A stretch of DNA of 64,000 nt from Fuerstiella sp. (GTDB lineage Bacteria > Planctomycetota > Planctomycetia > Planctomycetales > Planctomycetaceae). Location of the stretch: positions 1 to 64,000 of the forward strand of contig JALHMY010000035.1 of the NCBI GenBank assembly GCA_022843805.1. Reading direction: 5' to 3'. The notes under the pieces are model-generated. The model made no database searches. It was not told the origin of the DNA and was given only the letters and a program-made list of their open reading frames with translations. Positions 10,467 to 51,920 of this stretch are shown one piece after another (the stretch's first letter is position 1; the number at the start of each line of letters is the position of its first letter). The translations under genes and the position numbers were made by a program.

Positions 10467-10928
10467 ACAAAATTTCCGGAACTTCCGCTTTCCGTCGTCA
10501 GCTGCCTGCTCCCTTCAGTGAAAGCAGAATTTTCCATTGTAGAACCGACGACATTTGTAAGCGCGTACTACAGCAAACATGCGGCAGACTTCAACTATTG
10601 ATGCAGCCAAAGCTGCGATTCGGCCAATGTTTGCCGGTTTTTTGACCAACAATTTTTGACCCCGGATCGAATAAATCGGGACGATTTAGGCTTGATCTTC
10701 GCATTCTGACCGTTTTTTAAGCCTCCAGACTCCCGGACCTTGTACCCAGGGAGCACCTCTTTCCGGCAGTTCCCCTGTTTTTCCGAATTGTTGTCGATTT
10801 CCTGTCGCAGTTTGCCTGGCTTTAGCGAGCCACTGTCAGTTCGGGCTCTCATCCATGTGAGAACAATGGACTGCTCAGCCCAGATCAGGTCTCCCGCAAG
10901 ACAATATCACTGTAAGGAAGTCACGTTC
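10467..10928. other. Spacer between divergent fabF and peptidoglycan-binding gene
   Basis: The spacer is non-coding as far as I can see. The long plus-strand frame that reaches into it from 10740 is an open extension of the downstream gene, whose start is better placed at 10929. A small minus-strand frame at 10595-10852 is rich in K, S and N with no motif. Promoters for both flanking genes should lie here, but I see no convincing -35/-10 pair. Confidence 0.5.
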
Positions 10929-11879
10929 ATGTCCACAACATTCGAAGAAAAGTACATTCAGTGGGTCCAGCGAACACTCAATCGTGATCTGGATTCCGAT
11001 CTGATCACTAACGGCCGGGCCACTGCCGATTACCGCGAGGCGGTTGAGACATTCCAGCTGAAACATGATCTCAGCATCACAGGACTTGTGGATCGAAAAG
11101 ATCAGGATGTCATGATTAAGGTGAATCACCAGACCAAAGGATACGTAAACTGGCTTCAGGAAGCACTACGCGCGGCGGGGGTGGATTCTTCCCTGCCGAT
11201 TACCGGTGTCGTCGATGATGTCACGAAGCGATGCATCAAATCGTTCCAGAGCTTCCATCATCTCACGGATGATGGCTGGGTTGGCGCTAAAACAGAAAGT
11301 GAACTGATCGAATCGAGCGGACTTCTGCCCGGCGGACACATCAAAGGCATCCGTCCGCCACGACGACCGTTGTTCTACGACAACCCCACTCCGACTCACT
11401 CGGCGATCCCCGTCGAACAGGCGGTCAATCGGATTATCAGTTCCAACTACACTTACGCCCTGCACAATGCTGACGAAATGTCGGCAGATTCCCGGCGGAC
11501 ACGCCTGTCCGTGCTCGGCAAGTTAAAGCAGCGACACGGAATTCTGGATTCATTTCCCGATGAATTCAGGCTGGATATGGCCCACGGCGGAGTAAAGCAG
11601 TACAGCACCGCTCAGTCGGTATTCGTCAGTGCACGGGAGTATCTGACAACCAAAGTCTCCGGCTGGCCATCCTATCAGAGATTGAATGTCCATTCAGGAC
11701 GGCTGCTGGTGATCGACCTGATGAAACAGATCGAACGAGGCCTGAGCCGACTCAATCGCTATGCCAGGGAATCAAAAACTTCGCCTTCGGCATCCTTCGG
11801 ACCGCTGCTGGCAGAAATTGTGGCTGTTGTGGAAGAAAGGAAGCGGAAACCCAGCAGCATTCTGCACTGCTTTAAATAG
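10929..11879 (+). CDS. Protein with tandem peptidoglycan-binding-type domains
   Basis: A 316-residue protein from the ATG at 10929, chosen because TAAGGAAG ends 9 bases upstream and the homology begins there; the open frame runs back to 10740. Residues 5-60 (WVQRTLNRDLDSDLITNGRAT..AVETFQLKHDLSITGLVD) and about 66-125 (WLQEALRAAGVDSSLPITGVVD..IKSFQSFHHLTDDGWVGAKTE) are two copies of the PG_binding_1 three-helix repeat. The C-terminal 190 residues are polar and unassigned, with no transmembrane helix. There is no signal peptide, which is unusual for a wall-binding domain, so the target may be something else or export may be non-classical. It is monocistronic, and its stop is followed after 35 bases by a dispersed repeat. 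Confidence 0.7.
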   Translation: MSTTFEEKYIQWVQRTLNRDLDSDLITNGRATADYREAVETFQLKHDLSITGLVDRKDQDVMIKVNHQTKGYVNWLQEALRAAGVDSSLPITGVVDDVTKRCIKSFQSFHHLTDDGWVGAKTESELIESSGLLPGGHIKGIRPPRRPLFYDNPTPTHSAIPVEQAVNRIISSNYTYALHNADEMSADSRRTRLSVLGKLKQRHGILDSFPDEFRLDMAHGGVKQYSTAQSVFVSAREYLTTKVSGWPSYQRLNVHSGRLLVIDLMKQIERGLSRLNRYARESKTSPSASFGPLLAEIVAVVEERKRKPSSILHCFK

Positions 11880-11914
11880 GCAATCCCAGGCTCGCGGGCG
11901 AGCCATCGCGTCTT

Positions 11915-12280
11915 CCAGCCCCCACGAGCTCGACTCGTGGGCTTGCAGGGCCTTTGCACCAGGACAAAGCCTGCGGAGCGACGACGTGCGAACGAACTCC
12001 ACCTGGCGCAGAGGTTTTGAAGTTGCGCACTTTCTAACCGCGAAGCGGTGGCAGCATGTAGCCCATGGCGTAAGCCGTGGGAAAACGAAGCCATCCCAAC
12101 CGAAAGCCACGAAGTGGCGACAGCAAACTCTGCTGTCGCCACTTCGTGGCTGGTGGTTCAGAAGACACCAAAAACCGCGGGTTCACACCCGCGGCTACAT
12201 GCTGTCGCTCCTTCGGAGCTGAAAGTGTGCAACTTCAAAACGCAGAGGCGAGGTAAACCCACGAGACAGCTCGTGGGCGA
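11915..12280. repeat. Dispersed repeat, copy A (interrupted)
   Basis: This copy matches 32890-33024 (copy B) nearly base for base once a 226-bp insertion is removed. Shared landmarks are GAGCTCGACTCGTGGGCTTG, CAGGGCCTTTGC-CCAGGACA, CTGGCGCAGAGG, CGAGGTAAACCCACGAG and GCTCGTGGGCGA. The ends are complementary (CCCACGAG and CTCGTGGG), so a single transcript could fold on itself. It is non-coding in all frames. Confidence 0.85.
12015..12240. mobile_element. 226-bp MITE-like element with 8-bp target duplication
   Basis: The element begins TTTTGAAGTTGCGCACTTTC and ends GAAAGTGTGCAACTTCAAAA, which are inverted repeats with one mismatch in 20. It is flanked on both sides by CGCAGAGG (12007-12014 and 12241-12248). 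Copy B of the surrounding repeat has CGCAGAGG once (32984-32991) with no insertion, which is an empty site. It contains no open frame. Internally it is a stack of hairpins, the longest with 21-bp perfect arms (12105-12125 and 12131-12151, loop AACTC), plus CCGCGGGT/ACCCGCGG near 12180 and an outer pair CAGCATGTAGC/GCTACATGCTG. I infer movement by a transposase encoded elsewhere. Confidence 0.85.
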
Positions 12281-12419: not shown

Positions 12420-12857
12420 TTACTTCTTAAACGCATTACCGCCGAATCCGCCCCTGACATTCCCTTCATCATAGAATTCGATAAAGCCTATTCCGTTGTC
12501 CTTCGATTGCCCCGTCGCAAGAGCTGTCTTCTCATTCTTTGTGTATAGTAACAGCATCGGGCCAGCATCATTCGGGTTTGCAGCGAGCCTTACGCGCGCT
12601 TTGCCTGAACTATCCTGCAGGACCAGGTGAGCTCCATCATCCACCAACATCAGTGAAGCTCTTGTGTTCCCCTTGCCATCGGTCAGTACAAACTCTTCGG
12701 CGACTACCTTCTTTGCATTGAGGCTCTCGTTTTGCGATGCCGCACCCAGAACTAATGCAAACAATGGTAACAGCAGTATCAACCAGCGTTGTCTCCGATT
12801 TTGACGCTCGAGTAAGCATATTCGTGACTCAAGCGAGAATGTCGATTCGCAATTCAT
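12420..12857 (-). CDS. Membrane-anchored small beta-rich protein
   Basis: The 145-residue protein starts with a short charged stretch that may form a coiled coil (LESRICLLERQNRRQRW). One transmembrane segment follows (LILLLPLFALVLGAA, about residues 26-40), then an exported or periplasmic domain with repeated beta-hairpin units: EEFVLTDGKGNTRASLMLV, then AHLVLQDSSGKARVRLAAN, then PMLLLYTKNEKTALATG and a glycine-rich tail. The D-x-x-G-K-x-R pattern recurs in membrane-anchored proteins of many bacteria, but I know of no assigned function. It is a single gene on the minus strand, 152 bases downstream of the large propeller gene's end. The tail GGFGGNAFKK is intact. Confidence 0.6.
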   Translation of the reverse strand: MNCESTFSLESRICLLERQNRRQRWLILLLPLFALVLGAASQNESLNAKKVVAEEFVLTDGKGNTRASLMLVDDGAHLVLQDSSGKARVRLAANPNDAGPMLLLYTKNEKTALATGQSKDNGIGFIEFYDEGNVRGGFGGNAFKK

Positions 12858-32687: not shown

Positions 32688-33123
32688 ATCGATCGTGCGT
32701 TGAACTCTTCCGCTTTTTGAACTGAGCCGTTGGTCTGGAACTGTCCTTATGCAGAATCACTCCCTGACACTCGTCGGTCAGCCAAATTTTACCAACCGGA
32801 AGAATGAGTGTCACCTGGAAATTCTGATCATGGCTTCATTCAAGCTGCCAGCCCCAACTGCTCCCGTCGTGGGCGAGCATTCCCGCTAACCAGCCCCCTC
32901 GAGCTCGACTCGTGGGCTTGCAGGGCCTTTGCGCCAGGACAAAGCCTGCGCAAACGCCCGCGTTCGAACGAAATCCGCCCTGGCGCAGAGGCGAGGTAAA
33001 CCCACGAGGCAAGCTCGTGGGCGAGCATTCGCAGCAGTATTCACAAAATGTTTAATCCACCGCGACCTGCATGACGTTGACCTCCCGAAACAGCAATTGA
33101 TCGTTTTCGGAGACAACAAGCCC
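32688..33123. other. Spacer carrying dispersed repeat copy B
   Basis: No gene is visible. Small frames here read through repeat DNA. The repeat copy B occupies 32890-33024, and the direct repeat CGTGGGCGAGCATTC flanks it at 32868-32882 and 33016-33030. The ABC gene's leader with GGAGA (33109-33113) is at the end. The long frame open from 32929 merely extends the ABC gene upstream through the repeat. Confidence 0.6.
32890..33024. repeat. Dispersed repeat, copy B (uninterrupted)
   Basis: A 135-bp repeat homologous to copy A at 11915-12280 without the MITE-like insertion. It shows CGCAGAGG once at 32984-32991, directly joined to CGAGGTAAACCCACGAG, and serves as the empty-site reference. Its ends carry complementary CGTGGG-type words, and CGTGGGCGAGCATTC repeats on both sides. 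Confidence 0.85.
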
Positions 33124-36066: not shown

Positions 36067-39000
36067 TTACCTCCTGGGAGGGAGTAATCGGGTAAAGGTC
36101 CCGTTCCACCTGTATTTATGAACTTGCATCAAGTAATTTACTTCACGTCCAAATACGGTGACTTGTCCAAACTCATCCACCGTATGCATTGTCGACGAAA
36201 TTACCACAATTTCATCCCCGCGTTCAGCAGCAGCCTTGAGCCATGGGACGTTGTAGAGTTCAAAGAAGTCATCGACGGTCGGAGCCCTGTGCCGTACCGA
36301 TTCCATGTCGATATGCAGCACATTGAATCCACCCGGATTTGCTGCCTTAAAGCTTTGCAGTATCTCCTCATGAGTTCCTCGCAGGGGTGAAAGATTCAAT
36401 TCTCTTTTAAGAAGCAGAATATCGGACCAGTCTCTGCCAATGATTGTCGTCGTTTTTCCTGGCGTTGAGTAAATGTAGGTGCCCGATGTGGGTCTGTAAA
36501 ATACAATCGGAGCCAGCAGGTTGCGATTGCGAACGGGATCGCTGATCTGAGGATGATTCACTTTCCAGTAAACATCCTCATGCTCAGGAGATAACCGTGG
36601 CCTGACAGACGGAAGACCCGATCCCGGAAAAATGCTCTGGCCCGGAAGAGGCCCACGATTCTTTGGGGAGATCGCACCCGGGTACAGCGACAGAGCAAAG
36701 CAGGCAGTACGAATTGCCAGCTGCACGACGTCCCGGGATGTCTGCAGGGTCGCCTGAGCACCAATAACAGCAATCACCGACGCAATCGAGTGGAACATTG
36801 CATATTGCTGCGGGACCGCAGAAAGTGCAGCTCCCAGAACAAAACCCAGTGCTGTCGCATAACGGGCTTCAGCGATCGCCGCTGACTCCGGGTCGGCTCC
36901 CGGAGTATAACTGGCTGTGTACCAGCCATCTGTGTATCCGCAAACATACCCCAGTGCAGCGCCAGCCGCGGCGTTGGCAACACGGACCGCACGGTCCTGA
37001 AAGGACGCATACGATACAATCGCCGTGCGCCCGCTGGGGTCTGTAAACACCAGCGGCCGATTGCCCGTATAGCGATACAAATTGACGTCGCCAGCAGCAA
37101 ACTGATCGGGATCTTCACTGAGAAATCGGCCAGCAGTTGGATCATAATATCGGGCTCGATAGTAATAATATCCCAGCTCAGCATCCCATTCCCGTCCTGT
37201 GAAGCCAAACCGATCCGCCTGCTGAACATTGCTTTGATGAACGATTTGCCCAAAACTGTCGTAGGTGCTGGTATTGATGACGTTGCCGGCGCTGTCGAGC
37301 AGGTGCAGCACGCTGCCCGCCTGATCAGACAGGTACCATGCCGTTCCGTCGGCCGGTGTCCACCGTGCAGTGATTTCGTCGACGGATGGACCAAACAGAT
37401 AGCGGGCCAGAACCTGACCCGATTCGTCGAAATCCGCCCACGTGTGATGTCCGTCATACACCATATTCAGGATGCCGGCGGGCAACGGTCCGGAACCATC
37501 AGTATCCGCAATCCGGCTGATTCGTCGATCGAAAACATCATACACAGACTCGACGGACACCAGCAGGACATCACCAGCCGAAAACGTCCGAGCCGAAACC
37601 AGACGGTTTCGATAATCGTACTCATAAACTGTGAAAATTCCTGTGGCCTTTTCCGTTCGGCGGATCAGGTTGCCTTCCGCATCAAACCTGTAAGCATACA
37701 GCCTGTCGCTCAGCAGCTGATTGGCAGTTCCGATGATTCTCTCATCGTTTACCCTGTTTCCAACCGCATCGTACTCGAAGAATTCATCCACCTGCTGATC
37801 GTGATCGGCAAAGGTCAGCTGACCAGTCTCGTCAAACGCATAAGACGTCTGATTCCCATCGAGAGTTCTCGACAGTATTTCTCCGGCCAGATTCCATTCA
37901 ATATTCAGGTCCGAAAACAGCTCATCGACAGCATTCCAGTGTTGCATACTGTTGAGTCGGCCGGCGGAATCATATTGCCAGGACGTGCTGCTGATCGGGG
38001 TGGCATCACCTGCATTCTGAAAGCGCCGGGTCAGCATTCTTCCGCCCCGGGCATCCCACGAATATTCTGCCCTGATCGGGTCTGTTTCCCCGCCTGACCA
38101 CCTGCTGCTCACGAGTTGATTTCGGGCATCGTAGACGCTGCTGACAGTGACCCCGGCCTGGTCGGATCTGCGGACAACATTTCCGGCAGCGTCATATTCG
38201 TAAGAGAGAACCAGGCCCGGTCGCCCGTCGATCGCGACACTGGCAATCTGAGAGATTCGACTGAGAGGATCCCGGCTGATCGAATAGTCGCTCTGGCCGT
38301 CCGCCGCACGAGTCAGGTTTCCGACGGAATCATACGTATAGGTGAATTCCCGAAGAACGTTATTCGCCTGGAGCCAGAATTCTGCGGTTCGACGGTTGAG
38401 TTCATCGTACGTAAACTGTCGCACTCTTCCGTTTCGATCAGTCGACTGTTTCAGATTTCCTACGGGATCCCATTCGTAAGTGCGAGTATCGCCGAGCGCA
38501 TTCGTATCGCGAATCAGCTGATTCATTTGGTCGAATTCAAATAAGGAAACATTTCCGGCAGCATCAATCACAGCAGTCTGATTTCCCGCTGCATCGTACG
38601 CGAACCGCGTCGCTGCACCCAGAGCGTCTGTGAATGAAGTTCGGCGACCTAAATCGTCGTATTCGAAATGAGTTGTGCGACCCAGCGGATCGCTGACAGA
38701 GATCACATTGTTCCCTGAATCATACTGCCATGTCGTGGTGCCACCGTTCGGATCAGTCAGGGCCGTTCGGCGATTCAGACCATCGTATTCGTACCGGGTT
38801 ACGTTTCCTTCTTTATCGGTGGACGACGTCAGAAATGACACGGCGTTCCACTGGAAAAACTCCGAGTATCCAAGGGGATCTGTCTGACTGACAATACGCC
38901 CCAGTTCATCCCGGACGGCTCTTACGACATTTCCTCCGGGATCCCTCGCTTCGATCGTCTTTCCGACAGCATCATGGACGAATGTTGTCGTGCCACCCAT

Positions 39001-42000
39001 GGCATCGCGGACTTCGGTGAGACGCCCTGCCGGATCATAGGCCATCGTGGTCGAGTAACCTCGCTCATTGATCCACGATTCCAGATTCCCCACAGCATCA
39101 TAAACCCACTGCTGTACTCCACCCTGAGCATTCGTCTGTCGAATCATCCGGTGATTCTCATCGTATTCATAACGAGTCGTGTGATTCCTGGCATCCGTAA
39201 CCGACACCTGACGGCCCGCCGCGTCCCATTCGTAGGTGGTTGCATATCCCAGTGCGCTGACTGTGCGAATTGTTCGATCGAGCAGATCGAATTCGAATGA
39301 TGTGATACTTCCCCGTTCATCCGTTGTACGGACCGTATTTCCGCGAAGGTCATATTCCCAAAGAGTTGTTTCACCCATTGCATCCGTCTGCTGTATCATG
39401 CGATGCATCGGGTCATAGAGGAACGTTGTCGTACCACCGCGGGAATCGGTAACAGAATACAAATTGCCTGCGATGTCCCAGGCAGTCAGCGTTGTTCCTC
39501 CCATGGGATCGATCGTCTTGACAATTCTGTTTAAAGGGTCGTATGCAAACCGAGTCAGATGATTCGCTTTATCAGTCATTGAAGTGACATTGCCGACTTC
39601 GTCATAGGTCCAGACGGTTGAATAGCCAGCGGCGTCAGTTTCGGAGATCAGTCTTGAGCGGCTGTCACGTTCATAGTGGGTTGATCGCCCCAGTGCATCG
39701 GTATAAACAACGATATTGCCCATGGTGTCATACTGCCATGCTTCCACAGCTCCCAGGGCATCTTTTTTTTCCGTCATTCGATTCAGGCGGTCGTATTGGA
39801 ATGCGGTGGAATGTCCTGATTCGCTGGTTTCCCGTACCACGTTTCCTGCGGCGTCGAATTCAAACGTCTTTGCAGGCCGCAGTTCTCCATGCACCTGCCA
39901 CCGTTCACTCGTCATTCTTCCCAGACCGTCATATTCCCGGAGCAGGCGATGACCCAGAGAGTTCACTGCGGCCACAAGATTCCCGGTGGCGTCGTATTCC
40001 ATCCCGGTAACTCCGCCCATTGCATCGATCACGGACTGCATGCGGCCATCCGCCGTGTAACGATACTGTGTGGCGGAATTTCCTGGGCGGATCATTGTGA
40101 TGAGCTGATTGTTGGCATCATACTGATACTCGGTGATACCTCCCAGCGGGTCAGTTTCCTTAACTTTCCTGCCTGCGGCGTCGTATTCGAAGTGCACGAC
40201 TGATCCGTCCGGCCCGGTGATGGATATCAGACTGGTGCCATCCCAGGCATACTGTGTGTGGCCACCGAGTGCGTCAGCGGCAGAGATCAGATGCCCGGCT
40301 GCGTTGTAGCGAAACTGCGCCTGATGACCTCGTTCATTCGTCAGAGATGTGGTTTCTCCAAAGATATTGAATGTCATCGACCGGACCGTGCCATCCGGGT
40401 TCGTAACTCGAACAGGATCCGGAGAACCCCGGTCGGAATACTCAAAATGATAATCGCTTCCCAGAGGATCCGTCAGCATCACGGTTCGGCCGATTGGGTC
40501 GAGCGTCATCGACGTTGTCACGCCATTCGGATCAGTAATGCCCGTGAGATTGCCGCCAGCATCTCTGGAATAGACAACTGAGCGGCCCAGAGGATCTGTC
40601 TGAGTCAGCAGATCGTTCAAAGAATTATAAGTGTATTTCCAGATTCCACCGTCTGCATCGGTCCGTTCGACTACGTTACCTCGATCATCCAGACTTCTGG
40701 AGGTTGTAAATCCTCTGGCATCCGTTACCGAGACGAGTTCGTCGCTGGCATCGTAGACCATGACAGTCGTCTGTCCCAGCGGATTCGTCATCGCCGTGAT
40801 GTTGCCTCGTCGGTCATAAGTCAGGACCATTGGGTTTCCGACGCGATCAACAATCGTTTCAGTGTTCCGAAGCAGGTCGACGGAGTGGGATGTTGTGTTC
40901 CCGAAGGCATCTCCCAGCGCCTGAAGCCGACCACTGTCATCGTATGTCGCCGTGAATTCAGTATTGCCGTGGTGGTCACGAGCTTCACTCAGAAAATGCG
41001 CGGGCTGCGACAGATAGGACATCGTGGTCGAATTTCCAGTCTGATTCGTGACGCTGGTCAGATCTCCGGCGTCACTGTACTGGTACACAATCTGATGGCC
41101 GTCGGGATCCGTAATCTTTATGATTCGGCCGAGTGCATCGCGAGTCCATGTGACAGACGGTCCGAACGAACTGAAAATTCCGTCTGCCGTATGCGTCAAA
41201 CGGACATTGTTTCGATTCGTGATACTGATCAGACCATCAAACTGATCGTAGTGGTAACGCACCTGATCTTTTGTTGTCAGGGTGTATTCGCGAGGATTAA
41301 AACTGAACCCTCCGAAATAGAGACTGAATGATCCGTCCGGGTTCTGGCGGAGTGGCACATCCTCCACCATCAGCTGTTCGTACACGCCGCGATCCGGCCG
41401 AAAATGTGGTCGGAACAACGTCCCCAGTGCACCACCTTCCGCAACCGGATCAAACGTAAAGCCGACACGACGTCCGTCCGGAGTGTTAATGTAAACGCGG
41501 GTTCCGGTTCGAAAACCGAGGTTGTGAAAGAGCGATTCGTTTTCGAGAACGGGTCGAGTCTCACGGATGCGTCCGTCGATCAGTCCCATCATCCAGCCGA
41601 ATCCAAAATCTCCGGACGTTCCCGCCTGAAGAGTATCCCAGGTCCTGATAATGGTCAGCGGGATTCCGGCAAGTGGAACAGTCAGGTCCGTGAACTCCAT
41701 GCGATAGTTGCCGATTTTTGCATGGCCTTCCAGGTGCAGCTCAAACTGAAGAGTACTGACATTTCCGCTCAGATCGGAAGCAGTGATGCGAACCTCATAC
41801 GAATCGTTCATCAGCAAAGTCGGATCGAACGTCGCGAGAATCGCATTGGAAACGATTCCATCGGCATCAGAATACGTCTGCCCTGCAAATGTCGTCCACT
41901 GATTCTCGTACAGCGGCGACCATGCCACGGACCAGGATTCCAGATGATCGTCGATGATCGAACCCTGAATATCCGTCAGCCACGACACGACACTGCCTGG

Positions 42001-45000
42001 CGACGGACTTGTAACAGTGATTATGGGGGCCGACTGGTCAAACGGATCGATGACTCGCAGCACTCTTCTGGAAGTGGCCGAGTTCCTGCGAGCATCTGCA
42101 GCGACGGCAACGACTTCGTACAATCCGGGCGCCGTGGGACGATAAACGGCCGACCCGCGGTCATCCAGCGGAACAATTACTCCATTCACCTGCAGCGTGG
42201 TTTCGGTGACGCTCACATTGTCGCGGGCGATAACAGACAGCGAAATCAAATCACCCGGCTGAATTATCTGATTACTGAGCAGCACGGCAACTTCCGGTGG
42301 CTGAATATCGGCGATCACGTCAAGAACGAACCGCTGAGTTGTCACAGCCCCGCGGTCGTCCACAGCTCGCACCTCCAGCGGGTAGCTTCCGATTTCTGCA
42401 TCGGTTGGATTCCAGAGAATCAGGCCTGTGATCGAGTTAAAATGCATACCGGGAAGACGATTAATCAGCTCATAGCGGACTGAATCTTCAGCGTCTGTGG
42501 CATCCACATCGTATCGATATACCGAATCTGCCGTGACGATGGTGACCGGAACACTCGTGATCACCGGCGCCACATTCGGCCCTCGCACCTGCAGGAGGTA
42601 CGTCTGCAGAGCCGACTGGCCGCTGATATCGACGGCCTTCAGCTGAACAGTGAAATTTCTTCCCGCGGGGCTGTCACTGATCCAGCGGAGTACAGGCGTG
42701 GGAAGTCCGATCACCGAATCTCCGTCATTGAGCAACTGCATCCCGGCAGGTCCTGAGACCAGTTCATATCGGATCAGTGACCCTTCCGGATCACGCGCCA
42801 GCGGCTCATACCGGTACTCGGTGCCTGTTGTGGCCGCAGTCACAGGCAGTGACGCGAAGTAAGGAGCCTGATCCAGTGGCAGGCCGCCCGTCGTTAACGT
42901 AAAGAACTGACTGGCGAAACCACCCAACCCATCGGTGACCTGCAGAATGACATCAAACTGTCCCGTCAAATCATTCGGTGGCAGCCAGTCCAGTCTGCCA
43001 GTTGCCTGTTCGATTTGCAGACCGACCGGTGCCGTCAGCAACGACCAGGTAAGAACGTCGCCGTCAGAATCGAGGGCAAGCGGAAGATAAAGCCATGGCT
43101 GACCGGACGAAGCGTTCACCGCTGGCGTCGACAGGATGGTTGGAGCGTGAGGATTCTGCGGCAGAATCCCGGCAGACACACTGAACTGCTGAACTGCCTG
43201 CCCGCCCTGCCCGTCGGAAACTCGTAACCCTATTTCCCAGACACCCTGATGAACACCCGAAATCGTCACGAGTCCGCTTATTGGATCCACGGAAGCACTG
43301 GGTGGCCCAAAATCGAGACTGTATGTCAGGGCATCCCCGTCGACGTCAGCTGCATCTGCGTCATAAACCCATAACATTCCGGGAATCGCAGAAACATCGG
43401 GAATCGACCGAAACACGGGAGGACGATTATTTCCGGCCTTCGAAACAGTCAGCTGCCAGCGCTGCACAGCAAATCCCCCATGACCATCAGCGGCCTGAAC
43501 TTCGATATCATGATTCCCAATATCCAGCTCAGTGGGCTCCCAGATCAGCTCAGCAGCGCCAGTATGGTTCTGCAACTGCATGCCAACCGGCCCTCGAATC
43601 AACTGAAAGACCAGTTCCTGGCCCTCTGCATCCATTGCCTCCAATGCCGATCGAAACGGTGTGCCGGATCGAACCTCCATCGTTGGTACCGACGTGAACC
43701 AGGGCGACTGATTTCTCGAATGCAGAAGCGAAATCTCGGCAGCGAATCGCAGCAGTGCAGGATTCGAGAACTGCATGGGAATCACTTCTGACTGCTGTCC
43801 AGGCAATAACCGGCCATCCGGAAGTTCATCATCGAAATGAACCCAGGGAATCCTGTCAGGCTCGAAGTACCCTTCCGCAGACTGAAGCTGCACAAGTCCC
43901 ACCGGTAATTCATCGACAGACGCCAGAATCGGGCCTTCGAACACCTCACCGGAAACATTTCTGATTTTCAGGTCAGCATGCAGCACGGCCGTATTGCGGT
44001 TGAACGTCGGACCTGACCAGACAGCGGTCGAATGTTCTGCCGCAGTCATCTGGCTGACGCTGGCTGAAGGTTGCGATGGAGAAACGCCAAACAGACTGAT
44101 TTGTCGCAGTGTCGACCGGCCCCATGAGTCAATCGCACGGATCTGTATAGTCTGCTGACCTTCATGCACAGAAACCGGAGTAAAGAAATTGCCAGCGGCG
44201 TCGAGCGATTGAACGCCCTGATTATTGACCGTCACGCCAATCACCTGCAGCGACTGCAACAATGCCGCGCCAAGATCCTGAGGATCGCTGACCAGAAAAG
44301 TACGACCGGCTGATCGAGGATCGGCATCAATGGTCTCGCCCATCTTCCGAAGCGAACGAGTGACCTCAGTTCCCGAGATCTGAAATCCGTAGAAGTCGAT
44401 ACCCTTTGCCGCCAACCGCTGCAGATCAGCGTCGTCAGGAACGGGTGCGTCTCCATCTGTCAGGAAAAAGACCTGAGATTTTTCAGCAGGCAATGCGCGT
44501 TCCAGAACTTCGTCGACCAGAATTGTTGTCGCGGAGAAATTGGTCCCAATTCCCAGACTCAGTTCACGGAACTTTCTGGCCGAACCGGAAGTCAGAGACA
44601 CCACACTTTCATCAATATCAAAAATCCCGTTCCTGTTCTGATCTGCGTCCGGGCTGACGAAAGTCTGGAAGAACGGCAATGGGCTCAGATCCATGTAATC
44701 CGTAAACGTTGCAAAGGGTACAATCGCAACGCGGGCATCGATCCGGTTGTCTCGCAGGCTCTGAACAATTCTGAGCAGCGAACCGATTTCCACATCCAGA
44801 ATGTCGCCAACCGAGCCGTCACCGTTAAGATCGTCCTGCTGATCGGCAATTCCATCGAAGTTGGCGTCGGAACCAGCGGAGCCCAGAGTACTGTTCGACA
44901 AATCGATGGCAAATACCAGATTCGCCGTCGACGGCAGAACGGTTGCAGTTCCGGACAAAGCGACGCGACTTCCTGCCGGAAACTGCTGGCCGTCGATCAG

Positions 45001-48000
45001 ATGCGCTTCAACCGCGGGCGGACCTGATTCCAGAAGTCGATGGTAAACTGCGGTTGGAGCAGATACTCGAGCATTGTTGTCTTCCGCGAGCAATTCGAAC
45101 TCATTGTTCCAGGCGTCTGTTTCGACAATGACCGACAGATCGCCCTCAAAGCCCGCCGGGACGACGATCGTCTGAACCCGAGTGTAGCTTTCTCCCGGCT
45201 GCAGCGACCCATGATGCATCACTTCAGCCGTAAGCCTCTCCTGTGCTCGCTGAAACTGCCTGTCGGCTGAAAGATAAATGCGATCGAACCAATGATCCCC
45301 GGTGATTCCAGGCCCAAAATTCGTCACCGTCCAGGTGACCTCAAGGGAGATATTTTTCCCAACCACAACGGACGGACGAATGACCGTTGAAACCACCAAA
45401 TCAGACGGAACGGGCAGCGGTGGCGACTGGTCGGGGCGGATCATTCGAAAACTAAACTGGCCCGTTGCGTCCGTGTGAACAGCTGGCGATTGATCCACTG
45501 TGATCGTGTAGCGGCCGGATTCAGAAAGGAGACCTGTTTCCTGATCTGCCGCGGCATTCTGAAACAATGTCTGGCCAGAAGGTGTGCTGATGGTCCATGC
45601 CATCAGACCGGACTCATTGTACAACACATCCAGTTTCAATCGTTCACCTGCCAGAGCATCCACCGTCCATTTAATCTGGCGTCCTGGCTGGTTCAGACTG
45701 CCTGTCACAATCTGGTCTAACTCAATCTGTGTTGGTGCAGCGGGTGTGATATCGAAGATACGAAACTGAAACTCTCCCAGAGAATCAAGACGCGCGTTTG
45801 TTATCAGCGAATACAATCCGTCGACCGGCAAAGTTATTGGTGAACTGTCCAGCTGACTGATCAGAAAAGCGGACGCCGTGGCCATTGTGGAATCATCCGG
45901 CCGGCGAAACTGCCACTCCACCCAGGTATTGTTTTGCTGAAAATCGATGTAAATCTGCTGGCCGGCATAGCCTCGGAATTGAAAAATGTCCTGTCGTCCG
46001 GGCGACTCAATATTGCCCAGCATCAGTTCGCCGAAAGGCGATTCATAAACATCAGGATCAGGAACATTCCAGATGCGAAATGTATACTTAGGCAGTGTGG
46101 CCGACGGGCTGCGAAAGTGAATTTTCCATATCCCGGTTTGATCCAGCAGCATCGGGCCACGATCAAGAGCACTCAGAATGAAATTGCGAGTTTCCCCGTA
46201 GCTGACATTGTTGGGACCAAACAATTCGTATTCAATCCCGCCACTGATTGCCTGCAGATCCAGATAAATCGTATCGCCGACCTGGCCGTGGAATTCCCAG
46301 ATGTCGGGTCGTTCGAGACCTTCGATCGTGGATGTCTGTGCTTGATCGATTGCTGTCTGCCGGATCACGGGCGATGAATCGCGAATGATGAACTGGTAAG
46401 CCGGAATATCGTCACGGATCCCATCCACAACCAGCCGGTACCTGCCCGACTGCTGAAACACAATCGGCCCGGAATCCACTGCCAGCGTACCGAAAATCCG
46501 CTCGCCTGTCGGCGAAAACAGCTCGGTCCTGACAGCACCTCCGGTGATTCCACCGAAGTCCCATGTCAGGATCTGGCCAGCTGCAATGTCAATCAGCCAT
46601 TCGTCCAGGGCACCGGGCACGCTGATCTGCCCCGAGTATGAAACTTCCGGCAGCGCAACCCGCTGCACTGGTGGCGGTACATCGTAGACAACGATCTGAT
46701 ATGAAGGAGTTTGCCGAGTTCGTGATTCTGCTCGCAGAGTCCACATGCCGTTCTTCGTGATCGTGATCGAACCATCTGCTTCATCGGGGTTCCGCGGACT
46801 GGCATCAAAGCCATAACCGATGACCGTGGCTCCGTCAGGATCCAGCAGGCTGACATGCAGAAAACCTGACTGTACCAGCTGCACATCAACGAAGATCTTT
46901 TGCCCGACAGTTGCAGAAAACTGGTAATCGTTGATTTCTCCGACCGTTTCGATGTTGTCAGAGATCACATCATTCAGCGAATACGGATAAGTCGGATCGG
47001 CGATTCCTTCCGGGTGACGATTTCCTTTGGCCAGTGGAAACCAGTTGGCCGCTGATTGTCGACCCTTTCTGCGAGCTGTACCTTCCGAATATCGATAGAC
47101 CCTGTTGTCGTTTCGATCCGAGATCCAGATATCATGGCCTCCCCGGGGATCAATCGTAATGCCCGAAGGATGCGAGTTTCGGCCGTCGATCTGCCAGCGA
47201 CCAACCAAAGCTCCGTCCGCAATCCGATAGACGACAACGGCTTTCGCATTCTTATCGACGACCCAGGCAACGACTCCATTCGTGGCGATCCCCTGAGCAT
47301 CACTGTTATCCCGATGCAGAGGGAAACTGCGATTGCTGCGATGCCGACCACTTAGCAGTCGGGCAGCTCCCTGAAAGATCAGGACGCGATCCAGACCACG
47401 GTCAACGATCAGAAGATCATCCCCATCGACAGCGATGTCTTCAGGAGTCTTTAAGCCTTCAGCATGCCATGCCCCCAGCAGTTTCTCTTCTGCCGGGTCA
47501 TAAACATAAACCGTATGATTTGAATCGATCGTCCAGATGGGCATTCCGGAACCGTTGGTCGTTACTCCCCGAACATTATTCGACGGCTTCAGCGAAAAGC
47601 TTCCCAGCGAGTTACCGTCACTGTCGTACCTCCATGTTCGATCGGAATGGGCATCCACCACGAAGAATCGGGTTGCCATGACGTTCTGTCGAACAACGTT
47701 CACCCGTTTATCCGGCCCCTGATGTACTCCATCTTCATCCACCGCAAACACACGAATCCGCATCTCGCCTGTTTTTCGATAAACATGGCTGACACTGATC
47801 TCTGCAATCGTCGCCTCATCATCTGCGGTTTCATCATCGACCGTCTCGGAATTTTCAGGCGTGCGCCTTGACTTAACTGTGGACCATGTGCCATCGCCCC
47901 AGTCAATTCTCCATCCCACAATGGTGTCGGTGCCCGGATCTGTCGCTGAGAGCGTCAGCCTGTAGTGGGCGTTCATTTCGATTTGATCGGAGCCACTGAG

Positions 48001-51000
48001 CCCGATCACCGGAGAAACGTTTTTCACATCAATCGAAAGCGGGTTGGCAAACCAGCGACTGGTGCTGCTCGATGCAATCGCCGTGATGGCGGCTCGCTGA
48101 TTGTCAGTATACACATGAACGATTTCTGTCACATGTCCGGGAATGTATTCCACAGGAGTGCCATCACCCCAGTCGACTTCCCAGGCGATCGGGTTATGAC
48201 TACCGGCATTCAGCGACAGCAAATAGTGATGACCTTCGTGAGTTTTGAAATCTCCGGCGATTTGCACGCTCGTCGGATAGTTTTGTCTGCAGAAGACGAT
48301 GTCCGTCACAGCTGCACTTCCGGTCAGATGAATTTCCATCCGCCGCACATTACTTCCGTCCAGAGCGATCGTCTGTTCTTCCCACCTTCGACTCTTTGGA
48401 ATTGCCGCGACGGAGATCGATCGACCGGTTTCATCGAACAACTCGATGTAACCACCAGGAGTTGCAATCTCCCGCAAAGCCACCTGATCAAGTTTCACCG
48501 GATCATCAAACCGGAATACCATCACACCGCCACGAGCGGAGCTGCCAGAATTTTTCCCGCCCGGTCGATCGCCGATGACTAAGACTCCGTCATTAATGCA
48601 GCTGAGTCCCTTCAGGCCCCGACCATCTCGAAGAATGACGGCTGGATTTGACGAAGAAGTCGTGGACACGGTGATTCCCCAGTCGCGAAACTGATCGGTC
48701 ACAACCTGTCCATGTACAAGAGGTTCTCCATTGGCATCCGTTTCGAAGTCAATCTTCGGAAGCCATCGATTTTCCGGAAACGTGCACGTTACAAATAGTT
48801 GATTCGAAAAATAGCCGCGACTGCCTGAACCCAGCGCAAGGTCCTCATCCCACGCCTCTGCCTGAATCCGATACGTGGCCGGAATACCCGTATAGAAATG
48901 AACGACAGAAGCCGGGTTGCCCTGAATCAGTTCCGGTTCTGTCCCATCTCCCCAGTTGATTCGCCAGTGTGTCACTCGATCATCACCCGGGTCCGCGGCT
49001 GCCAGATTCAGCCAATAAGGCTGACCAATGAACGCTCCTGGCAGACCCGAAATCGTGAGCTGCTGGCTGACATTCTGAACGTTGACCTCCTTTGTGAGCA
49101 GGGCATAAGAACCAGGTCGGGCGGCTGTGACGGAAATTCGGCGAGTCACCGGACCATCCGCGAAAACATGAGCCACAACTGTCTGGTCAGCCGCAACCAA
49201 TTGCTGCGGAGTTCCATCTCCCCAATCGATCAGCCATTGTGATATTCCAGGGTAACCACCATCGAGCGACAGCTGATAACGGCCACCTTCTGTCGCAAAG
49301 TCTGCTCCGGAGATCGTCGGTGGCCGGACAACAGAATGGATGACAACCGAGAAGGACTGACTGGTCATTCTTCCGTCACCATCTGTCAGACGGATGCTCG
49401 CGCGATACTGACCCTCGTCCACATAGAGATGTTCCGCGACTACCATACCGAAGCCACTGAGAAACGTGACGGAACCGGCGATCACATTGCCGTCACCCCA
49501 GTCCACAACTGCTGTGTACGAATCGGACGATCCCTGATCGCGAAAGCTGGCCTTCAGCACCGCTGGCTGAACTTCGACAACGCTGATCAGCTCGACCGGG
49601 TCGAATTCCGCGGGTGACGCATTCACATTCAGGTGAAAGGACTGGCTGAGCCCCCCGTTCAATCGGTTTCCTTCCAGATCGATCACGGCTGATTCTGCGT
49701 TTTCCCCTTCAACCGTCAGCAGATAATATCCATCGTTAAGATTTCCATCTGCAACATTCAGAGTTGCTCGTCGAAGGGCCGCATTCCAGTCGATGCTGCT
49801 CAGCCGAATCGGTACGTCGTCGGATGTCCGCAGCACTCCGTCAGGACCAGCTTCGGCGAGCTGCCATGCGTTTGTACTGGTGACCGAATTTTTGCCGGTG
49901 CTTCCTCCGTCCTGAACGTCCTTTGAAAACTCCACAAGAATTTCCCGAATCAACGTCCGCACGGTACTGCCTGCTGCCGGAAAGATCAGATCGGCCGCGA
50001 GGCTCATGTCCACTGAGCCCAGCGACGAAATCACCGTACGAGAATCAGCCATTGCCACAATCAGATCGTCATCGAACCGATCTCTGCTCAATCGTGCTGA
50101 AATCAGGCTGCTCGGTGTTGTCCCCCATGTCGCCAGACTGATCTCCGTTCGTGTCCAGTGATCGCTCGGCGGTTCCTCGCCGACTTCCCCGGAATAGATG
50201 AATACACTGCCAGTCGAGATGTCCGCAACGGCGATGTCCGGCAGTCCGTCACCATTAAAATCACCAACTGTACTGCCGGAAACCTGTTGCAAAATTCCCG
50301 GCAGACGACGGGCAGTAAAACCGGACGACACGATTCGATCAGGAACCATCAGCACGTTATCAACAATCACCGAGGAACTGCCGGCCTGTGGGTGCCCAAC
50401 AAGATCGAAAATCAACCGAGCTTCCGTTCCTGGTACCAGATGCGAAATATCAAGAGTTACCGTGATGCCATCCCAGGCAACGCCAGCGGCAAGCGACACG
50501 GAACCTGATGAAGCTCGATTCAGAAACGACGTGGCCGTCGAACGATGAACGGGTACAAGGGAACGATCACTGTTATCCAGCAGAGAGACTTCAAACGCAT
50601 CCGGGATCAGACCGCCCGGATCCTGGAGATTCAGTTGCGGGATATCAAAGGAAATCGTCTGAGGCAAAGAAGGAACAACAAAGGTCTGCTGAAGCGAAGT
50701 GAGAAACGACTGGTTCTCCGTGAGTACCGCAAAATCACCTCCCGATGTCACGGTCCCAGCCACCTGATTGCCTGAATGTCCGACAATCTGCGTTGTCCAG
50801 CCTGTCAGTCCCTGCTCAAATCGACCGTTCACAATCGGCGAGCTTACCACAGGATCGGGTTCATTGATCAGTATCACGACACCATCGGACAGTGACACGA
50901 TCAGGTCAGTTTCACCATCACTGCTGAGATCTGCCGCACTGATGGTCTGGACTTCGCCGTTATCAGCCTGCTGCAGCTCCACAGGAAACTGAACAGAATC

Positions 51001-51798
51001 CTGATGGAATGTGCCGTTGCCATCACCGGTGAAGATGGCAATTCGCCCGTCGCTGTGAGCCACTGCCAGATCCGGTTCCGGGCCCCCGGAAAACTGTCCG
51101 CTCACCACACCGACTGGTTCCTGCCCGCCAGAAACGTAACGCGATGGTTCACTGAACTGACCATTTTGAAGTCCGCGAAAAATCAGCAGTTCGCCACTTC
51201 CTGGCACCACAATCGCGAGGTCTGTCAGAAAATCCTGATCGAACAGACCGGTGGCCATTGAAACAGACGATCTGCTGAACCGAGCGAACTGGCCGGGGAG
51301 TGCCGGTGTCAGTGTTTGCACTGCTCGAAATCCCTGCGCACCGTCGCTGACGGCAATCGTGATCCGATCGGATGAAACAATGATCAGATCGGCAAGATCA
51401 TCCTTTGACACGCTCGCGGAAGCGACGCCAATCCCATCCGGCAGGCCCAGCGAAATTGTCGATACGGACGACCAGCGCTGACCGTTCTGATTCGTTGCCA
51501 GAGTCAGCTGGCCATCAGCAGACAAAGACACGACATCGAGCCAGTCGTCTTTCGAAAATCGCCCGGCGGCCTGAGCCACTGGAATGCCTGACACCGGAAA
51601 ACCGTATTTCAGATCGGCAGAAAGTAAAAGCCGACGCTCCAGAACGTCGGACGAAATGCCGACTGAAAAATCGGATCGCAGCCCGGCTCGAACCGGAGAG
51701 CGGCGCACCTGACCACGTCGAATTCGAACACGGCGCACCGGAGAACAGCGAACAGCATTGCGGCGAAGGTCCGTGAGCGTTCTTCGGATCGTGGTCAT
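36067..51798 (-). CDS. Giant RHS/YD-repeat surface protein with C-terminal toxin candidate
   Basis: A frame of over 5,240 residues. I start it at the ATG at 51798, which gives a basic leader (RRTLTDLRRNAVRCSPVRRV) like other planctomycete giants; ATGs at 51816 and 51897 are alternatives. Residue numbers below count from 51897. Order: a LEPR-XLL-like motif (DVLERRLLLSAD, about 83-94), FG-GAP repeats (about 100-345), five PKD-like units with WGDG (about 800-1335), an NHL-like region (1410-1640), PPC-type units (1645-2160), a CARDB-like unit, a VWA domain (FAIDLSNSTLGS, DxSxS MIDAS), Ig or cadherin-like units (2730-3200), dozens of YD repeats (3540-4730), then the RHS core (GYYYYRARYYDPTAGRFLSE). 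The C-terminal 315 residues after DPSGRTA are the variable tip, with IIGRDW, NVPWLKAAAERGDEIVV and FGREVNYL. Confidence 0.85.
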   Translation of the reverse strand: MTTIRRTLTDLRRNAVRCSPVRRVRIRRGQVRRSPVRAGLRSDFSVGISSDVLERRLLLSADLKYGFPVSGIPVAQAAGRFSKDDWLDVVSLSADGQLTLATNQNGQRWSSVSTISLGLPDGIGVASASVSKDDLADLIIVSSDRITIAVSDGAQGFRAVQTLTPALPGQFARFSRSSVSMATGLFDQDFLTDLAIVVPGSGELLIFRGLQNGQFSEPSRYVSGGQEPVGVVSGQFSGGPEPDLAVAHSDGRIAIFTGDGNGTFHQDSVQFPVELQQADNGEVQTISAADLSSDGETDLIVSLSDGVVILINEPDPVVSSPIVNGRFEQGLTGWTTQIVGHSGNQVAGTVTSGGDFAVLTENQSFLTSLQQTFVVPSLPQTISFDIPQLNLQDPGGLIPDAFEVSLLDNSDRSLVPVHRSTATSFLNRASSGSVSLAAGVAWDGITVTLDISHLVPGTEARLIFDLVGHPQAGSSSVIVDNVLMVPDRIVSSGFTARRLPGILQQVSGSTVGDFNGDGLPDIAVADISTGSVFIYSGEVGEEPPSDHWTRTEISLATWGTTPSSLISARLSRDRFDDDLIVAMADSRTVISSLGSVDMSLAADLIFPAAGSTVRTLIREILVEFSKDVQDGGSTGKNSVTSTNAWQLAEAGPDGVLRTSDDVPIRLSSIDWNAALRRATLNVADGNLNDGYYLLTVEGENAESAVIDLEGNRLNGGLSQSFHLNVNASPAEFDPVELISVVEVQPAVLKASFRDQGSSDSYTAVVDWGDGNVIAGSVTFLSGFGMVVAEHLYVDEGQYRASIRLTDGDGRMTSQSFSVVIHSVVRPPTISGADFATEGGRYQLSLDGGYPGISQWLIDWGDGTPQQLVAADQTVVAHVFADGPVTRRISVTAARPGSYALLTKEVNVQNVSQQLTISGLPGAFIGQPYWLNLAAADPGDDRVTHWRINWGDGTEPELIQGNPASVVHFYTGIPATYRIQAEAWDEDLALGSGSRGYFSNQLFVTCTFPENRWLPKIDFETDANGEPLVHGQVVTDQFRDWGITVSTTSSSNPAVILRDGRGLKGLSCINDGVLVIGDRPGGKNSGSSARGGVMVFRFDDPVKLDQVALREIATPGGYIELFDETGRSISVAAIPKSRRWEEQTIALDGSNVRRMEIHLTGSAAVTDIVFCRQNYPTSVQIAGDFKTHEGHHYLLSLNAGSHNPIAWEVDWGDGTPVEYIPGHVTEIVHVYTDNQRAAITAIASSSTSRWFANPLSIDVKNVSPVIGLSGSDQIEMNAHYRLTLSATDPGTDTIVGWRIDWGDGTWSTVKSRRTPENSETVDDETADDEATIAEISVSHVYRKTGEMRIRVFAVDEDGVHQGPDKRVNVVRQNVMATRFFVVDAHSDRTWRYDSDGNSLGSFSLKPSNNVRGVTTNGSGMPIWTIDSNHTVYVYDPAEEKLLGAWHAEGLKTPEDIAVDGDDLLIVDRGLDRVLIFQGAARLLSGRHRSNRSFPLHRDNSDAQGIATNGVVAWVVDKNAKAVVVYRIADGALVGRWQIDGRNSHPSGITIDPRGGHDIWISDRNDNRVYRYSEGTARRKGRQSAANWFPLAKGNRHPEGIADPTYPYSLNDVISDNIETVGEINDYQFSATVGQKIFVDVQLVQSGFLHVSLLDPDGATVIGYGFDASPRNPDEADGSITITKNGMWTLRAESRTRQTPSYQIVVYDVPPPVQRVALPEVSYSGQISVPGALDEWLIDIAAGQILTWDFGGITGGAVRTELFSPTGERIFGTLAVDSGPIVFQQSGRYRLVVDGIRDDIPAYQFIIRDSSPVIRQTAIDQAQTSTIEGLERPDIWEFHGQVGDTIYLDLQAISGGIEYELFGPNNVSYGETRNFILSALDRGPMLLDQTGIWKIHFRSPSATLPKYTFRIWNVPDPDVYESPFGELMLGNIESPGRQDIFQFRGYAGQQIYIDFQQNNTWVEWQFRRPDDSTMATASAFLISQLDSSPITLPVDGLYSLITNARLDSLGEFQFRIFDITPAAPTQIELDQIVTGSLNQPGRQIKWTVDALAGERLKLDVLYNESGLMAWTISTPSGQTLFQNAAADQETGLLSESGRYTITVDQSPAVHTDATGQFSFRMIRPDQSPPLPVPSDLVVSTVIRPSVVVGKNISLEVTWTVTNFGPGITGDHWFDRIYLSADRQFQRAQERLTAEVMHHGSLQPGESYTRVQTIVVPAGFEGDLSVIVETDAWNNEFELLAEDNNARVSAPTAVYHRLLESGPPAVEAHLIDGQQFPAGSRVALSGTATVLPSTANLVFAIDLSNSTLGSAGSDANFDGIADQQDDLNGDGSVGDILDVEIGSLLRIVQSLRDNRIDARVAIVPFATFTDYMDLSPLPFFQTFVSPDADQNRNGIFDIDESVVSLTSGSARKFRELSLGIGTNFSATTILVDEVLERALPAEKSQVFFLTDGDAPVPDDADLQRLAAKGIDFYGFQISGTEVTRSLRKMGETIDADPRSAGRTFLVSDPQDLGAALLQSLQVIGVTVNNQGVQSLDAAGNFFTPVSVHEGQQTIQIRAIDSWGRSTLRQISLFGVSPSQPSASVSQMTAAEHSTAVWSGPTFNRNTAVLHADLKIRNVSGEVFEGPILASVDELPVGLVQLQSAEGYFEPDRIPWVHFDDELPDGRLLPGQQSEVIPMQFSNPALLRFAAEISLLHSRNQSPWFTSVPTMEVRSGTPFRSALEAMDAEGQELVFQLIRGPVGMQLQNHTGAAELIWEPTELDIGNHDIEVQAADGHGGFAVQRWQLTVSKAGNNRPPVFRSIPDVSAIPGMLWVYDADAADVDGDALTYSLDFGPPSASVDPISGLVTISGVHQGVWEIGLRVSDGQGGQAVQQFSVSAGILPQNPHAPTILSTPAVNASSGQPWLYLPLALDSDGDVLTWSLLTAPVGLQIEQATGRLDWLPPNDLTGQFDVILQVTDGLGGFASQFFTLTTGGLPLDQAPYFASLPVTAATTGTEYRYEPLARDPEGSLIRYELVSGPAGMQLLNDGDSVIGLPTPVLRWISDSPAGRNFTVQLKAVDISGQSALQTYLLQVRGPNVAPVITSVPVTIVTADSVYRYDVDATDAEDSVRYELINRLPGMHFNSITGLILWNPTDAEIGSYPLEVRAVDDRGAVTTQRFVLDVIADIQPPEVAVLLSNQIIQPGDLISLSVIARDNVSVTETTLQVNGVIVPLDDRGSAVYRPTAPGLYEVVAVAADARRNSATSRRVLRVIDPFDQSAPIITVTSPSPGSVVSWLTDIQGSIIDDHLESWSVAWSPLYENQWTTFAGQTYSDADGIVSNAILATFDPTLLMNDSYEVRITASDLSGNVSTLQFELHLEGHAKIGNYRMEFTDLTVPLAGIPLTIIRTWDTLQAGTSGDFGFGWMMGLIDGRIRETRPVLENESLFHNLGFRTGTRVYINTPDGRRVGFTFDPVAEGGALGTLFRPHFRPDRGVYEQLMVEDVPLRQNPDGSFSLYFGGFSFNPREYTLTTKDQVRYHYDQFDGLISITNRNNVRLTHTADGIFSSFGPSVTWTRDALGRIIKITDPDGHQIVYQYSDAGDLTSVTNQTGNSTTMSYLSQPAHFLSEARDHHGNTEFTATYDDSGRLQALGDAFGNTTSHSVDLLRNTETIVDRVGNPMVLTYDRRGNITAMTNPLGQTTVMVYDASDELVSVTDARGFTTSRSLDDRGNVVERTDADGGIWKYTYNSLNDLLTQTDPLGRSVVYSRDAGGNLTGITDPNGVTTSMTLDPIGRTVMLTDPLGSDYHFEYSDRGSPDPVRVTNPDGTVRSMTFNIFGETTSLTNERGHQAQFRYNAAGHLISAADALGGHTQYAWDGTSLISITGPDGSVVHFEYDAAGRKVKETDPLGGITEYQYDANNQLITMIRPGNSATQYRYTADGRMQSVIDAMGGVTGMEYDATGNLVAAVNSLGHRLLREYDGLGRMTSERWQVHGELRPAKTFEFDAAGNVVRETSESGHSTAFQYDRLNRMTEKKDALGAVEAWQYDTMGNIVVYTDALGRSTHYERDSRSRLISETDAAGYSTVWTYDEVGNVTSMTDKANHLTRFAYDPLNRIVKTIDPMGGTTLTAWDIAGNLYSVTDSRGGTTTFLYDPMHRMIQQTDAMGETTLWEYDLRGNTVRTTDERGSITSFEFDLLDRTIRTVSALGYATTYEWDAAGRQVSVTDARNHTTRYEYDENHRMIRQTNAQGGVQQWVYDAVGNLESWINERGYSTTMAYDPAGRLTEVRDAMGGTTTFVHDAVGKTIEARDPGGNVVRAVRDELGRIVSQTDPLGYSEFFQWNAVSFLTSSTDKEGNVTRYEYDGLNRRTALTDPNGGTTTWQYDSGNNVISVSDPLGRTTHFEYDDLGRRTSFTDALGAATRFAYDAAGNQTAVIDAAGNVSLFEFDQMNQLIRDTNALGDTRTYEWDPVGNLKQSTDRNGRVRQFTYDELNRRTAEFWLQANNVLREFTYTYDSVGNLTRAADGQSDYSISRDPLSRISQIASVAIDGRPGLVLSYEYDAAGNVVRRSDQAGVTVSSVYDARNQLVSSRWSGGETDPIRAEYSWDARGGRMLTRRFQNAGDATPISSTSWQYDSAGRLNSMQHWNAVDELFSDLNIEWNLAGEILSRTLDGNQTSYAFDETGQLTFADHDQQVDEFFEYDAVGNRVNDERIIGTANQLLSDRLYAYRFDAEGNLIRRTEKATGIFTVYEYDYRNRLVSARTFSAGDVLLVSVESVYDVFDRRISRIADTDGSGPLPAGILNMVYDGHHTWADFDESGQVLARYLFGPSVDEITARWTPADGTAWYLSDQAGSVLHLLDSAGNVINTSTYDSFGQIVHQSNVQQADRFGFTGREWDAELGYYYYRARYYDPTAGRFLSEDPDQFAAGDVNLYRYTGNRPLVFTDPSGRTAIVSYASFQDRAVRVANAAAGAALGYVCGYTDGWYTASYTPGADPESAAIAEARYATALGFVLGAALSAVPQQYAMFHSIASVIAVIGAQATLQTSRDVVQLAIRTACFALSLYPGAISPKNRGPLPGQSIFPGSGLPSVRPRLSPEHEDVYWKVNHPQISDPVRNRNLLAPIVFYRPTSGTYIYSTPGKTTTIIGRDWSDILLLKRELNLSPLRGTHEEILQSFKAANPGGFNVLHIDMESVRHRAPTVDDFFELYNVPWLKAAAERGDEIVVISSTMHTVDEFGQVTVFGREVNYLMQVHKYRWNGTFTRLLPPRR

Positions 51799-51920
51799 CC
51801 AGGGATGCAGCAACATCACGGTGAAGCTTCCATTGATGCGAATCAGGATGTCAGTCAGGGTGTGCGGGGAAACGAACCACAAGTGAATGCAGAGCATTCA
51901 GAATCCGTCCCCGTGCACTA

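Follow-up and report, generated by a model that had tools for sequence, protein, structure and literature searches.

RF01687, or Acido-Lenti-1, was described as a probable RNA of Acidobacteria and Lentisphaerae (Weinberg 2010, PMC2864571). REPs, REPINs and TIRtrons associated with RAYTs are already known (Bertels and Rainey 2011, PMC3116915; Nunvar 2010, PMC2817692; PMC3733652), and GTAG REPs as well as a Y1 class have been reported from Planctomycetes (PMC3733652; Quentin 2018, PMC6006769). The nearest precedent that we have seen for a combination of the kind described here comes from Anabaena variabilis, in which GTAG-15 dimers lie inside long palindromes (Di Nocera 2013, PMC3733652). Among the elements moved by DDE transposases, the IS4 family has direct repeats of 7-13 bp and a YREK signature, and IS701 has a 4-bp direct repeat and an incomplete YREK (De Palmenaer 2008, PMC2266710). 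How does a locus of Fuerstiella sp. compare with these systems? In the window, by which we mean the whole stretch of 64,000 nucleotides analysed here (contig C35), lies a 226-bp element that is probably a MITE moved by an IS4-family-like DDE transposase, with a REPIN-like unit of RF01687 modules as its body.

Like other MITEs, the element is short and dispersed, has inverted ends as in a full genomic IS and is flanked by target duplications; unlike them, it has a body without IS remnant beyond the ends, which is instead an apparently REP-type unit of five hairpins whose fold is kept. Like REPINs, BIMEs and REPtrons as presented in PMC3116915, PMC2817692 and PMC3733652, this unit is an inverted doublet of GC-rich hairpins of a kind that adjoins Y1 genes, with GTAG before the hairpin in the copies of the source genome. 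It differs from them in its length (185 bp here, and 181-256 bp in twelve units free of the terminal inverted repeats, TIRs), in its central hairpin, in the variability of GTAG and in being enclosed here by DDE ends and 8-bp duplications. TnpAY1 class 3 and the TIRtrons (PMC6006769, PMC3733652) likewise have structured repeats flanking Y1 genes, in Planctomycetes and Acidobacteria, but those of class 3 have a CnGA foot. As for Acido-Lenti-1 RNA itself, both arms of the element exceed the gathering score of its model, but the motif is here dispersed, arranged in inverted pairs and found adjoining RAYTs in Planctomycetes.

The element and its insertion site

A sequence-only reading of the window had proposed a 226-bp MITE-like element with 20-bp terminal inverted repeats, an 8-bp flanking duplication and several long hairpins, one of them with 21-bp perfect arms. 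All of these features stand, with coordinates and length as first given (Table 1): the left end TTTTGAAGTTGCGCACTTTC and the inverted right end TTTTGAAGTTGCACACTTTC agree at 19 of 20 positions, and the duplication CGCAGAGG is perfect on both sides. The MITE reading is well supported by the TIRs, the duplications, the dispersed copies and an IS with the same ends on contig C18. What the sequence-only reading did not contain is that the body consists of two inverted RF01687 repeats, that units of this body type occur elsewhere without these ends and that a second insertion, on C15, shares the same base of the host repeat.

Table 1. Features of the element, its target and the host repeat in the window
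Feature	Position	Strand	Basis or remark
MITE, 226 bp	12015..12240	+	length, ends, genome copies, duplication
Left terminal inverted repeat	12015..12034	+	first 14 bp the same as in the ends of the IS on contig C18
Right terminal inverted repeat	12221..12240	-	end comparison
Left target-site duplication CGCAGAGG	12007..12014	.	read from sequence
Right target-site duplication CGCAGAGG	12241..12248	.	read from sequence
Left RF01687 (Acido-Lenti-1) copy	12036..12081	-	cmscan 41.8 bits
Central hairpin	12105..12151	.	21-bp perfect arms 12105-12125 and 12131-12151
Right RF01687 (Acido-Lenti-1) copy, inverted relative to left	12175..12220	+	cmscan 46.5 bits
Interrupted host repeat, left part	11915..12014	+	alignment to other copies
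Interrupted host repeat, right part	12241..12280	+	alignment to other copies
Host repeat, uninterrupted (empty site)	32890..33024	+	CGCAGAGG once, no insertion

A degenerate search for the end (up to three mismatches) gives two matches in the window against none in each of 100 shuffles. The predicted RNA fold of the 226 bp has an energy of -144.3 kcal/mol (z -15.9 against shuffled sequence), and the predicted DNA fold reaches z -14.3 in the same comparison. No ORF of at least 100 aa lies wholly inside the element; three overlap it, each exiting into the left flank (11761-12222 on the plus strand, 11759-12142 and 11772-12110 on the minus strand), and the site is situated between the ends of the convergent ORFs 10740-11879 and 12420-12857. 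Elsewhere in the window, a 5,276-aa ORF (36067-51897, minus strand) shows FG-GAP, PKD, Ig-like and many RHS repeats.

The insertion splits a larger host repeat, which is itself near-palindromic and dispersed, with some tandem runs at a spacing of about 145 bp; its places include 32890-33024 and 11915-12280 in the window, C84:39839-40395, C24, C37, C101 and C5. The empty site that had been claimed for the second copy in the window is there, with CGCAGAGG single and unbroken. Nor does every copy of the larger repeat hold the same 226 bp: 30 of 30 fetched copies align across the site without insertion, 18 of them with exactly CGCAGAGG, in a set that is biased to uninterrupted copies because the query used to find it spans the insertion site. 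Two copies of the host repeat are split by the element, one in the window and one on C15, where the element lies at the same base and in the same orientation. Are these one event or two? The flanks are identical at 129 of 148 positions and the elements at 96%, which speaks more for two independent insertions at a favoured site than for one insertion that was then copied together with the host repeat. No copy of the host repeat adjoins the RAYT genes of the source genome.

The source genome (9.2 Mb in 172 contigs) contains eight 226-bp copies at 95-100% identity, variants of 238 bp (90% identity) and 194 bp (81%), and further pieces that are truncated or at contig edges, several of them at contig ends, and in a search of the whole genome the ends do recur as inverted pairs. 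Target duplications match at 8/8 in six of the eight 226-bp copies; the two copies on C78 have an identical perfect duplication and are probably one duplicated event. The elements at L003 and L004 are full-length and have no target duplication.

An insertion sequence with the same ends

Is there a transposase gene with these ends and an 8-bp duplication, as the sequence-only reading had suggested looking for? The end search found one on C18, in an intact IS of 1,526 bp (L049:2601-4126, corresponding to C18:108600-110125). Its ends are identical to those of the MITE over 14 bp (TTTTGAAGTTGC), it is flanked by a duplication of its own, GCGATCGG (8/8), and its one ORF, of 459 aa, matches PF01609 (DDE_Tnp_1) at 1.8e-18. 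This transposase is the sole close protein match in the genome, next to one weak match of 30% on C112. By blastn, the MITE and the IS have nothing in common but the ends at E below 0.05.

Eight of eight aligned transposases agree fully in the Y, R, E and K residues of the YREK signature, and the spacing Y-(2)-R-(3)-E-(6)-K is also present in 13 of 13 members of a larger set, in which 12 frames were chosen for having the motif. By the definition in PMC2266710, the signature and the 8-bp repeat assign the C18 IS to the IS4 family and exclude IS701, which had given the best NCBIfam score, below its cut-off, and is ruled out by the 8-bp repeat and the complete YREK. The transposase falls below every cut-off of the NCBIfam IS4 and IS701 models listed, and a search of solved structures with the transposase profile gave no match. 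Within IS4, the ISPepr1 subgroup (PMC2266710) is similar in length (1,500-1,600 bp, against 1,526 bp for the C18 IS), in its full YREK and DDE transposase and in its duplication (7-8 bp, against 8 bp); of the subgroup end consensus, YT-AA-YTT, the C18 IS end TTTTGAAGTT matches only YT in register. Planctomycete relatives of the IS include Neorhodopirellula pilleata, an uncultured Schlesneria and Zavarzinella formosa. Among 20 relative loci, a number that includes the IS itself and some elements seen twice, both ends are present in 16, a single end in one and no ends in three, and perfect 8-bp duplications occur at six of the 20 (elements of 1.0-2.4 kb only).

End motifs, targets and bodies in other genomes

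The 14-bp end core is present in 86 of 297 relatives, own genome counted, and 36 genomes have four or more copies; a reversed control never exceeds two. With at most five candidates scored per genome, the transposase is found at E<=1e-20 in at least nine of the 297 genomes and in at least six of the 36 with four or more end motifs, so that most of the end-rich genomes are without a detected close relative of it. G009, which represents a second genus of the family, has no matching transposase at E<=1e-20 despite 29 end motifs and seven elements read, and the mobiliser there is therefore undetected or lost; in G104, a fragment that contains a stop is present. In the loci examined, 60 distinct pairs of ends lie 80-450 bp apart, counting nested and duplicated pairs, and duplications of at least 7/8 accompany 32 of the 59 pairs with both flanks, compared with 4.0% for shuffled flanks. 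Twenty-four duplications from other genomes, each turned for best fit, favour CTNRCGCT (three fit at 2/8 only). The G009 elements have flanks that are similar to each other, which indicates that the insertion target there is also a repeat.

Other genomes carry unlike palindromes between the same ends, including pairs built on GACGCGTCAGCGAGGG (L373, L316). At L316:1501-1716 (G077), an element end is nested in a same-ended element whose outer duplication is perfect. Such varied bodies and nesting fit a capture of repeats by elements that hit repeats, of which no intermediate was seen. In viral contigs the end motif occurs in four, as single ends with no pairs within 2.5 kb, and a plasmid search gave no match.

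The body of the element

Both arms of the body cover all 46 positions of RF01687 and exceed its gathering score of 37 bits; in the left arm, read on the plus strand, GTAG at 12058-12061 precedes a GC-rich hairpin. In the source genome, where 150 of 1,453 candidates were scored, at least 25 matches are over the cut-off: 20 belong to full or partial copies of the element, four are other RF01687 repeats (two on C10, one each on C103 and C52) and the remaining one, on C57 at 37.1 bits, lies in an unlike repeat, CCCAGGGCGTTGCCCTGGG, so the model is not strict. Those matches below the threshold that were read, at about 30-33 bits, are this same unlike repeat and were not counted. The repeat, with the sequence CCCAGGGCGTTGCCCTGGGC and a hairpin partner, has many near-identical copies (L108-L119; C57, C47, C10, C24, C29 and others), of which the one just named exceeds the RF01687 gathering score; copies also precede both RAYT genes on C47.

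In a sample of the phylum, with at most 20 candidates scored per genome, RF01687 is found in at least 78 of 294 genomes (at least 60 over the cut-off), against 0 of 14 control genomes, and many of the matches listed are minus/plus pairs, mostly about 135-160 bp apart. Twelve such pairs without MITE ends, picked from seven genomes, share the layout rcRF01687-hairpin-RF01687, with both arms over the cut-off in 10 and one arm in two (L142 and L138). Middle hairpins are present in all 12; in 10 they are at z -2 or below against shuffles, and in two the middle fold is weak (z -1.3 and -1.4). As the same layout occurs elsewhere without the ends, the element in the window can be understood as a unit of this TIR-free type plus IS ends. 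In G405, contigs C76, C278, C280, C750 and C764 have RF01687 at their first bases, which suggests that the assembly probably breaks at these repeats.

Could the element be an ordinary MITE that arose by internal deletion of an IS, its resemblance to RF01687 being a convergence of GC-rich hairpins? The match of ends and target duplication to the C18 IS, the many unlike palindromic bodies between these ends and the acceptance of the unlike C57 repeat by the model all agree with such an origin, but we give it little chance, since the likeness between MITE and IS stops at the ends, both arms match the full length of RF01687 over its gathering score and the layout recurs where the ends are absent.

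Conservation of the five-hairpin fold

If the element is a MITE with a REPIN-like body, how well is that body kept? The seven copies read in G009 have 72-74% identity and each contains RF01687 twice, over the gathering score in six and at 33 bits in L152; perfect duplications flank three of the seven. Across 15 aligned copies, 96.9% of paired cells remain paired, and both sides have changed in 17 of 79 pairs, against at most three in slid controls; most of these changes come from one split, between the own copies and those of G009, and so amount to few independent events. Inspection by eye of the end-paired elements picked out three more, L319 and L375 (G282, another family) and L317 (G104, same family). 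They keep 66-69 of the 79 pairs and match RF01687 on one arm only, at 33-35 bits and below the gathering score; even at the 56-60% identity that they show, the layout and the length (224-226 bp) are retained. As GTAG is not kept in these three or in most elements of G009, and the linker stem of the G009 elements is, it appears to be the fold, and not a RAYT guide, that is maintained. The pairing could in part be kept by one arm correcting the other during replication, instead of by selection.

Compensatory changes in the fold, the site between two convergent ORFs and the rating of the motif as a probable RNA (Weinberg 2010, PMC2864571) would all suit another view, in which the host retains RF01687 and the five-hairpin unit as functional RNAs, such as 3'-end stabilisers or terminators, and their mobility is incidental. 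This seems improbable to us, because the element is without a match at E<=0.001 in two of three same-genus genomes and has one partial match in the third, which is 66% complete, and because the elements insert into repeats with target duplications.

RF01687 beside RAYT genes

Y1_Tnp genes occur in each of 14 genomes, 12 taken for their numerous RF01687 matches and two for matches to the MITE, but also in five of 14 controls. Position is the sharper criterion. Of 30 RAYT loci, a subset of the Y1_Tnp matches, 11 have RF01687 with at least the gathering score, and of 40 arbitrary regions similar in size, from 12 genomes, none does (Fisher p 2.5e-5); the other 19 RAYT loci are without it. RAYTs flanked by RF01687 are found, for example, in G049, G094 and G342. 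Six of the 11 have it on both sides, minus/plus as in the element (L342, L344, L352, L355, L356 and L358), with additional copies at L352, and in G458 minus and plus copies enclose a RAYT within 300 bp. In the source genome, with its 12 Y1_Tnp matches, none of the 12 RAYT loci has RF01687 at the gathering score. There, the C14 RAYT has upstream hairpin-linker-GTAG-hairpin repeats, one at 34.2 bits to RF01687, and at the two C47 RAYTs the matches, of 32 bits, belong to another repeat. By eye, the RAYT at L126 (C19) has a hairpin-linker-GTAG-hairpin family of a different kind on either side.

The known REP foot is GTAG or GTGG, and the search covered GTAG. It is found on both arms in six of eight own copies, in one of seven G009 elements and in none of L317, L319 and L375; it is missing from both arms in six of the seven G009 elements and in the same three others, and varies among the TIR-free units. 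Its absence or variation makes canonical RAYT recognition doubtful in all of these except the own copies, and its loss from most G009 elements argues against current RAYT mobilisation there. Because RF01687 adjoins a share of the RAYT genes and TIR-free units exist, it is most plausibly a REP-type repeat that belongs to RAYTs; filed as an sRNA with no known role, it looks like mobile DNA. A possible link between RF01687 and group II introns was set aside, these words being absent from the main text of PMC2864571. That the element is itself now moved by a RAYT (HUH Y1) as a REPIN, with the inverted ends as passengers, would agree with the Y1_Tnp matches in the genome, with RF01687 adjoining RAYTs and with GTAG on both arms of most own copies, but is hardly credible, given that the 8-bp duplications abut the outer ends and not the RF01687 arms, and that five of the G009 elements lacking GTAG on both arms have target duplications, at 8/8 in three and at 7/8 in two.

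A model for the element

In the reading that we prefer, a DDE MITE with a REPIN-like body, a DDE transposase such as that of the C18 IS would recognise TTTTGAAGTTGC and insert the element by 8-bp staggered cuts, often at GC-rich sites within other repeats. The shared ends, the duplications and the recurrent targets are observed, and from them we infer mobilisation in trans by the IS transposase. The cargo, a long hairpin with RF01687 modules in inverse orientation on its two sides, would be a REPIN between IS ends. As elements with these ends often hit repeats, we infer as the likely route that a REP array received IS or MITE ends on either side and that the composite then moved together. The fold may be kept for transposition, for replication through the palindrome or for an RNA role. 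A more far-reaching proposal, which we find rather unlikely, is that of a two-system chimera in which DDE ends enclose HUH/Y1 REP modules: its body would spread both by double-strand cut-and-paste and by single-strand RAYT chemistry, its five-hairpin form of 224-226 bp would be selected as a folded single strand and RF01687 would be the half-unit of a DNA element.

In titles and opening abstract lines, with subscription journals thinly covered, neither RF01687 as a REP nor a REPIN within DDE ends was found. The present reading ties RF01687, an orphan Rfam 'sRNA', to a transposase class, and would put right the annotation of many Planctomycetes and perhaps of Acidobacteria. It adds an IS4-like IS and the MITEs that go with it, which often insert into other repeats, and offers a case of a REPIN-type unit turned into the body of a DDE MITE, the divergent copies of which suit tests of fold maintenance.
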